Shown one piece after another: positions 3,575-52,394 of a stretch of 64,000 nt of DNA. Source of the DNA: Marinactinospora thermotolerans DSM 45154. GTDB lineage: Bacteria; Actinomycetota; Actinomycetes; Streptosporangiales; Streptosporangiaceae. The stretch spans positions 62,001 through 126,000 of the forward strand of contig NZ_FUWS01000013.1 in the NCBI RefSeq assembly GCF_900167435.1, given 5' to 3'. Each line of letters opens with the position of its first letter. The stretch's first letter is position 1. The translations under genes were made by a program, and so were the position numbers. The notes below the pieces were generated by a model. That model ran no database searches and was not told where the DNA came from. It saw only the letters and a program-made list of their open reading frames with translations.

Positions 3575-3827
3575 GCCCCACAGCCTACGGACGTGTACGC
3601 CTCCTGGTCCGATATCGGCCAGAGGTGAGCGAGATTATGTCGGCATTGTCGGGGCAACGGCCGGGTTAGCCGCCATCAGGGCGTTATTGCATCTAAGATC
3701 GTTAGTGCTGACGTCGGCTGTGGCGGAGCCGGTCGTCACCCGCGCAACGAGCCGAGGTAACGACCCGGTTTCACAGCAGGTGCGATATACGTCACACTGT
3801 TGACGGTCAGGCTGCAAGGAGGAAGTG

Positions 3828-4511
3828 GTGGACGAGACCAACGAGGTGCTGAGCAAGGCTCCCTTGTTCGAGGCACTCGACGAGGATGGAGCCGCGGCGC
3901 TGCGCGCCTCGGTCAGCGAAGTGCGGCTCGGCCGGGGCCAGACGCTGTTCTCCGAGGGGGACGAGGGCGATCGCCTCTACGTGATCCTCAGCGGAAAGGT
4001 CAAACTCACCCGGACCGCCGTGGACGGCCGCGAGAACCTGCTGAGCGTGCTCGGGCCGGGCGAGATGTTCGGTGAGCTCTCCCTGTTCGACCCGCGGCCG
4101 CGCACGGCCAGCGCCGTCGCGGTCACCGACACCGTGCTCGCCGGGCTGGGCCATGACGACCTGCGCCCCTTCATCTCCCAGCAGCCCGAAGTGGCCGTGC
4201 ACCTGCTCAAGGCGCTGGCCGCGCGGCTGCGCCGGACCAACGACACCATGTCGGACCTGGTCTTCACCGACGTTCCCGGCCGGGTCGCCAAGGCCCTGCT
4301 CGACCTCGCCGACCGCTTCGGCAAGGAGGGCGACGACGGTCTGCACGTCCACCACGATCTCACCCAGGAGGAGCTGGCCCAGCTCGTCGGCGCCTCCCGC
4401 GAGACCGTCAACAAGGCGCTGGCCGAGTTCGCGCTGCGTGGCTGGCTGCGCATCGAGGCCAAGGCCGTCGTGCTGCTCGACATCGAGCGGATGCGCCGCC
4501 GCGCGCGTTAG
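3828..4511 (+). CDS. crp: Crp/Fnr-family cAMP receptor-type regulator
   Basis: About 227 residues: cyclic-nucleotide-binding beta-roll (residues 10-120, with GEMFGELSLFDPRPRTASA holding the phosphate-binding cassette Gly-Glu-Leu-Ser and Arg) and a C-terminal winged helix whose recognition region is TQEELAQLVGASRETVNKAL. Nearly collinear with Crp of Streptomyces and M. tuberculosis (Rv3676), global regulators of development, metabolism and secondary metabolism. Two tandem GTG codons (3825, 3828) follow AAGGAGG at 3816-3822; the second has the better spacing (5 bases). Upstream there is a TAAGAT -10-like hexamer at 3694-3699 in the 250-base gap shared with nth. Confidence 0.95.
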   Translation: MDETNEVLSKAPLFEALDEDGAAALRASVSEVRLGRGQTLFSEGDEGDRLYVILSGKVKLTRTAVDGRENLLSVLGPGEMFGELSLFDPRPRTASAVAVTDTVLAGLGHDDLRPFISQQPEVAVHLLKALAARLRRTNDTMSDLVFTDVPGRVAKALLDLADRFGKEGDDGLHVHHDLTQEELAQLVGASRETVNKALAEFALRGWLRIEAKAVVLLDIERMRRRAR

Positions 4512-48645: not shown

Positions 48646-49935
<1,290 letters not shown>

Positions 49936-50381
49936 GCCGAATGCGACCTTTCCGGAAGGGAAGAGGCTAGGCCGGGCGACCCGCCACCCCGTTGATCTCG
50001 ATCCCACTTCCCGCGGCCCCTCCGGGACAACCGACACCGCCCCGAAGGTCCATCATCGTCACCTGAACTTCCCGAAAGAATTCTGGATAAGATAATTACG
50101 CCGCTAAGTGATATTTACATCAGGTAAAACGATAAGCGTAGCGGCATCCTATAACCGCAGGAGAAGTGGATCAAGTGGCACATGCCACATCACCGGAAAG
50201 ATGTGGCGCATTTAGACAGAGCATAAAGTTCTACGGGTTTTACCCGCAGGGCCGGGAGTTCGTCGGAAAACACAATGGTGTACCATGCCCGCGCCCCGGC
50301 CCCGGTGCCCCACGGAGCGGTGGAGCCGCCACGCCCCCCGAAGAGGCACCCACGGCCCGCCCGCCCCGGAGGGAACCGTCC
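49936..50381. other. AT-rich intergenic island
   Basis: About 445 bases between citrate synthase and the LacI gene, conspicuously AT-rich between about 50080 and 50290. Contains GCCGCTA (50100-50106) paired with TAGCGGC (50139-50145), a TGAT-N6-ATCA dyad (50109-50122), and the overlapping hairpins at 50175-50207. A frame beginning GTG 50166 (MDQVAHATSPER...) has AGGAG too close and continues antisense into lacI, so I do not call it. No defined RNA family recognised. Confidence 0.5.
50175..50207. promoter_or_regulatory. Two mutually exclusive hairpins
   Basis: Segment GCCAC at 50184-50188 can pair either with GTGGC upstream (GTGGCA-CA-TGCCAC, 50175-50188) or, within GCCACATC, with GATGTGGC downstream (50200-50207, loop ACCGGAAA). 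Three-arm alternate pairing is the layout of an attenuator or riboswitch, but no known class fits. Confidence 0.45.
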
Positions 50382-51428
50382 TCACCCTCGCTGCTCAGTG
50401 CCCCCCGCAGGCCCCTCACGGCGCGACCGCGGCACGGCCGTCGACTGGCGGACGACCAGGCGGGTGTCGAGATGGACGTGGTCACGGACCGGTCCCGCCG
50501 CCCGCACCGCCCGCACCGCCAGCTCCGCCGCCCGCTCCCCCATCTCGGTGACCGGCTGGGCGACGGTGGTCAGATCCAGTAGCGCGGCGACATCGTTGTC
50601 GTCGAAGCCCATCACCGACACGTCGCCGGGCACGTCGATCCCCGACCTGCGCGCCACCTGCAGCACCCCCATCGCGACGTCATCGGACTCGGCGAACACC
50701 GCGGTCGGCGGCTCCGCCATCGACAGCAACCGCGCCATGGCCAGCGCCCCGCCCTGGTGGCCCGGCGGCTCGGTGACGACGACCGCCTCGGCTCCCGCCT
50801 CGGCCATGGCCGCCTCGTACCCCCGCAGCCGGTCCCGGGAACTCCACGAGAATCCGGTCTGGTCACGGGAGCACACATAGGCGACACGCCGGTGGCCGAG
50901 GTTGAGCAGGTGCCGCGTGGCCCCGGCGGCGGCCGCGGTGTCGTCGGTGAAGACACAGGCCCGGCCGGGGACCCGACGGCCGCAGAACACGACGGGCAGG
51001 CCGATCTCGTCCAGCCGCGCGACAGCGGTGTCGCCGAGGTCGAGCGCGACCGCGATGACCGCGTCGACGTTGCTGCGCAGCGGCAGTGAGCGGACGTAGG
51101 CGTCCAGCTCGTCGACGTCGCCCACCTGGTAGACGAGCATGTCCTGGCCGCTCGCGCGCAACCGGGTGCTCACCCCCGCCAACGCGACACCGAAGAACCA
51201 GGGCTGAAGGAACGGGACGAGGACCGCGATCCGCCCGGTGACGCCGGTGACCAGGCTGGAGGCTCCGCGCGAGACGACGTAGCCGAGTTCGGCGGCCGCC
51301 CGCTCGACCTCGGCCCGTACCGCGGGGGCCACCCCGGAGGCCCCGCGCAGGGCCCGGGATACCGTCGACAGCGAGACCCCCGCACGCGCCGCGACATCAC
51401 TCATGCGCGGGTGCTCGGGAAGCGGCAT
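50382..51428 (-). CDS. LacI-family transcriptional regulator
   Basis: 348 residues from ATG 51428. Helix-turn-helix MSDVAARAGVSLSTVSRALRG with ELGYVVSRGASSL hinge, then periplasmic-binding-protein-like ligand domain. The ligand is likely a carbohydrate by family, but no target genes adjoin. Start chosen because the operator palindrome (51446-51463) lies immediately upstream; earlier in-frame ATGs at 51446 and 51455 lie inside it. Confidence 0.9.
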   Translation of the reverse strand: MPLPEHPRMSDVAARAGVSLSTVSRALRGASGVAPAVRAEVERAAAELGYVVSRGASSLVTGVTGRIAVLVPFLQPWFFGVALAGVSTRLRASGQDMLVYQVGDVDELDAYVRSLPLRSNVDAVIAVALDLGDTAVARLDEIGLPVVFCGRRVPGRACVFTDDTAAAAGATRHLLNLGHRRVAYVCSRDQTGFSWSSRDRLRGYEAAMAEAGAEAVVVTEPPGHQGGALAMARLLSMAEPPTAVFAESDDVAMGVLQVARRSGIDVPGDVSVMGFDDNDVAALLDLTTVAQPVTEMGERAAELAVRAVRAAGPVRDHVHLDTRLVVRQSTAVPRSRREGPAGGTEQRG

Positions 51429-51445
51429 GTCCACGATGGTAGGCA

Positions 51446-51463
51446 TGCCGCTCATGAGCGGCA
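51446..51463. promoter_or_regulatory. 18-bp perfect palindrome, LacI autoregulatory operator candidate
   Basis: TGCCGCTCATGAGCGGCA is fully symmetric and placed 18 bases upstream of the lacI start. LacI proteins bind such palindromes as dimers. The centre is AT, not the more common CG. Confidence 0.6.
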
Positions 51464-51728
51464 ACGCCACCACCACCGGTCCGGAGCGACCGCGCGCCCT
51501 CGTCCCCGTCCCGCGGACGATGACCGCGGGCGCGCTGCCACCACGTCCGCCGGACGGGTGAACGGCGACGGCGGCACCGCGTCCCCCTTTCCGGTAACCG
51601 GAGAAACACAGAACGCGATTTCCACCCCCGAAGCGCAACTGAAATCAGGTATTGAATCCACACCCCTTTCCTCACTCATCCCCATTCAACTCTTCTCTTC
51701 GGAAAAATGCCGGTGATACGATCAATGA

Positions 51729-52394
51729 ATGGATCACACGGTTGGTCTGACCCTGGCCGAGGAACTCGCCCTCATCGCCCTGGGAGATCACGACGGAAAA
51801 CCGATCCTCAACGAGACGGTTTTCCAAATCGGCCTGGCGGGTGCGATGCTGGCGGAGATGGCGATCCTGGGAAGAATCGACCTCTCCGGCGACCGCGTCA
51901 CCGTCACCGACACCACCCCTACCGGTGACCCCCAGATCGACGCCCTACTGGACAGGATCGCCCAGGAGGCGAAACCGAGAAAGGTCCAGTGGTGGGTGGA
52001 GAAAATCAAGTCGAGCGCTCTCCAGAAAGGGACACTGGAACGTCTCGCCGCCCGGGGCGTGGTGAGCGAGAGCGAGCACCGTGTTCTGGGGATCCTCCCC
52101 ATCCGGCGCTATCCCCAGGCCGACCCCGACCCCGAGACGCAGATCCGCTCGCGGATCCGCGCCGTCCTGGGGGGCGGCGCGGCCGACCAGCGCACGGCGG
52201 CGCTGATCGCCCTGATCGACGCCTGCGGAATGACGCGACGGCAGTTCCCCGAGGCGAGCAAGGGGCGGATCAAGCGGATCATCGAATCCGACCAGGCGGG
52301 CCGGTCCGTGAAAAAGGTGATCCAGTCGATCCATCTGGCCACCGCGGCGTCCATCGCGGTCATCGGCGCCGCGGGGGCCGCGAGCGCGGGGTGA
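51729..52394 (+). CDS. GOLPH3/VPS74 (GPP34)-family protein
   Basis: 221 residues. LTLAEELALIALGDHDGKP and QIGLAGAMLAEMAILGRI mark the GPP34 fold, with KPRKVQWWVEKI in the middle; in eukaryotes members bind PI4P at Golgi membranes. Bacterial homologues are common in actinobacteria but functionally undefined. ATG start lacks a ribosome site and follows GATACGAT, so a leaderless mRNA is possible. Confidence 0.85.
   Translation: MDHTVGLTLAEELALIALGDHDGKPILNETVFQIGLAGAMLAEMAILGRIDLSGDRVTVTDTTPTGDPQIDALLDRIAQEAKPRKVQWWVEKIKSSALQKGTLERLAARGVVSESEHRVLGILPIRRYPQADPDPETQIRSRIRAVLGGGAADQRTAALIALIDACGMTRRQFPEASKGRIKRIIESDQAGRSVKKVIQSIHLATAASIAVIGAAGAASAG

Follow-up and report, generated by a model that had tools for sequence, protein, structure and literature searches.

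A conserved, probable gltA promoter region with a putative Crp-type site in the AT-rich island upstream of the citrate synthase gene of Marinactinospora thermotolerans

The window analysed here (the whole stretch of 64,000 nucleotides from Marinactinospora thermotolerans DSM 45154) has a GC content of 71.5%, against 50.2% for the region 50080-50300. This AT-rich island lies between two genes, both located on the minus strand and reading leftwards. The downstream one is gltA (48646-49935, ATG at 49935), coding for a citrate synthase of 429 aa that scores above cut-off with the NCBIfam models NF004126 and TIGR01798 and whose start codon is in register with those of its relatives in the alignment. 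Upstream of gltA is a gene for a LacI-family regulator (50382-51638; Pfam PF00356 and PF13377). The two genes are neighbors here only, a local rearrangement, since in none of the 14 relatives with matches to both do they adjoin, being found on other contigs or far apart. Only 69 of the 63779 sliding windows of 221 nt are at or below the GC content of the island, and the minimum of the whole window (46.6%) starts at 50066, bearing out the AT-rich island upstream of citrate synthase that the original prediction had described. The third most AT-rich stretch of the window (51602-51822) is located just upstream of the gene (51729-52394) for a GPP34 (Golgi phosphoprotein 3-like) domain protein (PF05719). 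Two small plus-strand ORFs of the island (50166-50582 and 49934-50095) belonged to no Pfam family and are regarded as chance. Direct searches for homologues of the island gave zero plasmid matches and, among 200 genomes of the family, besides the window itself, short matches in its GC-rich edge only; the conserved footprint described below emerged only after anchoring on gltA.

Read on the gltA strand (minus), the island contains the 14-mer GTGGCATGTGCCAC (50175-50188), a -35-like hexamer TTGATC (50169-50174), 17 nt, a -10 element TAGGAT (50146-50151; TATGAT or similar in the relatives) and then about 210 nt to the ATG of gltA. From the position of the -10, transcription is predicted to start at the A at 50139, 7 nt after it, which would give gltA a leader of about 204 nt. 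The 14-mer is a candidate Crp-type operator; it fits exactly the strong consensus GTG(N)6GNCAC and also GTG(N)8CAC, and its centre would be placed at about -42.5 relative to the predicted start. It is the same sequence that had been noted earlier, on the other strand, as a GTGGCA/TGCCAC hairpin. A generic scan for sigma-70 promoters and terminators gave no site in the island; its sigma-70 threshold was 9 of 12 positions, and TTGATC-N17-TAGGAT falls below it. At the -35 position the window has 4 of 6 matches to TTGACA, versus 1-3 of 6 in the relatives, so its promoter may work without Crp, while the poor -35 of the relatives points to an ancestral promoter dependent on an activator. The AT-richness of the island would follow from the need of a promoter for readily melted DNA.

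We scanned for this arrangement (GTG-N8-CAC, 22-26 nt, TANNNT) within the 350 nt before gltA. The loci were the best 30 (the window's own included) among 200 family genomes, 85 of which had a match, together with 20 stretches from lower in the same list and 28 of 80 named loci. The window has the arrangement, as do 30 of the 32 relatives with a closely related gltA (L105-L133 and L142-L144), and dinucleotide shuffles of the same stretches yield it in 0-1% of cases. None of the more distant loci, 40 in all, showed it. These comprise L008-L034 and 13 of the stretches L145-L161; the other four of these 17 gave no gltA match and were left out. L007 (Allosalinactinospora lopnorensis) duplicates the contig of L117, and the two were treated as one locus. 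Before the citrate synthase genes of the 16 Streptomyces loci scanned, the arrangement was absent. The two close gltA relatives without it are L116 (G053) and L121 (G007), where the promoter has been replaced or moved. These two, together with the empty distant set, make the arrangement a trait of the clade and not a general one. A 60-nt bin of 50% GC or less, 60-240 nt before gltA, is found in 29 of the 30 family loci L104-L133 (the exception is L116) and in none of the 16 Streptomyces loci.

The spacer between operator and -10 measures 24 nt in 29 of the 30 relatives, 25 in the sister locus L105 and 23 in the window. Since alignment of the whole upstream regions by MAFFT misaligned the window and L105, a pattern-anchored alignment was taken instead. 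Eight loci, each from a different genus and each with a 24-nt spacer, gave a majority fraction of 0.85 for the 14-mer and 0.92 for the -10. The upstream flank reached 0.54-0.57, and unrelated sequences would be expected to give 0.45. The conserved block begins two bases before the GTG and fades some 20-40 nt past the -10, the upstream flank being near background. A promoter occupied by a protein would show such a pattern. Throughout the genome, GTGN6GNCAC followed by spacer and TANNNT is not enriched (8 matches versus 11 for the reversed control; the seven other matches were judged from their downstream frames alone), and the support for the site thus comes only from its position and its conservation. 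Over-representation of the motif with promoter spacing we consider a supporting, not a defining, property of a Crp/GlxR operator.

Such an operator also calls for a cognate regulator encoded in the genome, and the window itself contains a candidate, a Crp/GlxR-type gene (crp, 3825-4511, plus strand) adjoining nth (endonuclease III; TIGR01083). Its product matched 3d0s, which we take to be the CRP-type chain of M. tuberculosis, with 275 bits in phmmer, besides similar structures, and the recognition stretch gasretvnkala is identical in both proteins. The score with the NCBIfam CRP model NF008732 is under the curated cut-off (112 vs 266 bits), which probably reflects the distance of the actinobacterial branch.

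The original prediction had centred on alternative pairings, and these do exist in the DNA. The segment GCCAC (50184-50188) is common to the dyad GTGGCA/TGCCAC (50175-50180 and 50183-50188, read on the plus strand) and to the pairing of GCCACATC (50184-50191) with GATGTGGC (50200-50207, both given on the plus strand), while the 7-bp pair GCCGCTA/TAGCGGC and the dyad TGAT-N6-ATCA (50109-50122, plus strand) were found where they had been placed. Among 1000 dinucleotide shuffles of the island, an 8-bp stem with a loop of 3-10 appeared in 18, as many 7-bp pairs with a loop of 3-40 as observed (three) in 28, a 6-bp dyad with a gap of 0-4 in 196 and as many 4-bp dyads with a gap of 6 as observed (three) in 42. 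With each type in 2-20% of shuffles, the dyads are noteworthy, not extreme; in sum they are moderately unusual, each type having been picked after the fact. Folding of the island gave z scores of -2.13 (plus strand) and -1.69 (minus strand), reaching -3.58 for the minus strand of 50165-50260 (0 of 200 shuffles as stable). For the predicted leader (49933-50140), folding was no more favourable than in shuffles (z +1.00).

A cis-acting RNA switch or a small RNA, in which GCCAC would pair either way and control gltA or act in trans, could account for the mutually exclusive pairings and for the stability of 50165-50260 and of the plus strand of the island. We consider it highly improbable, since the GCCACATC/GATGTGGC helix is complete in the window only, with 2-6 of its 8 pairs kept in relatives, and the predicted leader shows no particular structure. 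The shared segment is located upstream of the conserved -10 and of the predicted gltA start, and would therefore be absent from the gltA mRNA. The covariation check proposed with the switch revealed no compensatory change, and the Rfam scan proposed alongside it gave no match; it was run at the gathering threshold for the window and with E values up to 5 for 49850-50450. A riboswitch or other known RNA was rejected, the island having only two sub-threshold chance matches in Rfam. A different origin of the structure is that the minus-strand hairpin GCCACATC-N8-GATGTGGC (50184-50207), which overlaps the operator, and a further one, CTGCGGGT-AAA-ACCCGTAG (50232-50250, minus strand), a possible lacI terminator some 130 nt past the stop codon of that gene, make up the 3' end of the lacI mRNA, the gltA operator merely overlapping one of them. 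Both hairpins are on the lacI strand, 130-200 nt past the stop and within the segment with z -3.58, and a junction-specific structure fits a lacI gene that adjoins gltA only here. Against this, there is no U run, the terminator scan found none and lacI homologues elsewhere carry only unrelated stems after their stops. We regard this 3' end as possible, if somewhat doubtful, and it is compatible with a Crp-type promoter on the same DNA.

The conserved 14-mer could also be the operator of another regulator binding GTG-N8-CAC, such as the NADH sensor Rex or an FNR-like protein. Rex operators (TTGTGAA-N4-TTCACAA) likewise read GTG-N8-CAC, but the typical GTGAA/TTCAC arms are found in none of the sites listed, these ending in GTCAC, ATCAC or GCCAC. 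The FNR-type sequence TTGAT-N4-ATCAA is missing, and the TGAT-N6-ATCA dyad has the wrong gap (6) and no counterpart in L105. A regulator of this kind is thus unlikely. From the Crp/Fnr-like site originally suggested for gltA, the Crp-like part is supported, although at the GTGGCA/TGCCAC palindrome, and TGAT-N6-ATCA falls.

Close to the predicted start there may be a second control element. The arm TAGCGGC (plus strand, 50139-50145) spans the predicted -6 to +1 and is found at the same place in L105; it pairs with GCCGCTA (plus strand, 50100-50106). The L105 version has lost the outermost pair and differs by 3 nt in distance. One arm comes before the predicted start; should that start be correct, a stem in RNA is improbable, and paired protein sites fit better. 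Among 341 genomes of the family, the inverted repeat CCGCTA/TAGCGG with a -10 in front (TAGGATNCCGCTAC...TAGCGG) appears in two (those of the window and L105), once each. Within 0-45 nt past the gltA -10, L106-L133 and L142-L144 instead show a conserved block that includes a direct repeat of 11 bp, TTNAY-N6-TTNAY. Of 31 sites scanned that have the arrangement, 26 carry this repeat, and the five that lack it include the window and L105. The OmpR-type regulators GlnR, PhoP and MtrA have sites resembling such a repeat, and the block looks like a site of this type. A tentative and rather unlikely extension is that the window and its sister (L105, genome G023) kept the Crp site and exchanged the second gltA control element, from the direct repeat to CCGCTA/TAGCGG at the predicted start. 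If true, the regulation of entry into the TCA cycle would have been rewired here, bringing in an unnamed regulator.

Taken together, these observations suggest, with a probability of roughly 0.74, that the island is a conserved gltA promoter region with a putative Crp-type site. The figure takes into account that the pattern is not enriched genome-wide, that the trait belongs to a single clade and that binding, start site and sign of the effect are predictions. A Crp/GlxR-type dimer (the product of 3825-4511) would bind GTGGCATGTGCCAC at 50188-50175, centred some 42.5 bp upstream of the predicted start, beside RNA polymerase and close to the class II position, and binding would tune the transcription of citrate synthase to cAMP. 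Activation of gltA is more likely, the relatives having retained the Crp-type site despite a poor -35; repression is possible. What appeared as an RNA oddity becomes in this way a testable promoter map, with putative cAMP-Crp control of citrate synthase in this clade. The conserved promoter block, replaced in two lineages, provides a small case of change in how a gene of central metabolism is controlled.

Class II CRP sites of E. coli centre close to -41.5, beside RNA polymerase, compared to predicted centres of -42.5 in the window and -43.5 in the relatives with a 24-nt spacer. The 14-mer of the window is an exact fit to GTG(N)6GNCAC, given as the strong consensus of S. coelicolor Crp (Gao et al. 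2012, cited in PMC10033298), and in this respect resembles the Crp regulon of that species, unlike the 16 Streptomyces citrate synthase loci that we scanned, which have no such arrangement. In vitro binding of target DNA by Streptomyces Crp is reported as something that could not be demonstrated (PMC10033298). In M. tuberculosis, activation reportedly accompanies sites bound upstream of the start, and repression those bound close to it (PMC4117774). A search of the literature gave nothing on Crp and citrate synthase for Nocardiopsis, and nothing on gltA of this clade among the matches listed. Among the systems closest in kind is C. glutamicum gltA, where a Crp-family regulator, GlxR, with a motif reported as GTG(N)8CAC (PMC10033298), is described as repressing the gene (PMC4448153) and sites for GlxR and RamA are named (PMC7026483). 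That gene differs from the one conserved arrangement seen here in its reported two promoters, RamA/RamB and GlxR as a repressor. For the citrate synthase genes of S. erythraea, also an actinobacterium, Liao et al. (2014) name GlnR, DasR and CRP as regulators in their title, which makes them a reported case of CRP control; GlnR is also dealt with in PMC10704036. Since Crp-family control of citrate synthase has already been reported in related bacteria, the kind of regulation proposed here is known, and this instance of it is, as far as we have searched, new.
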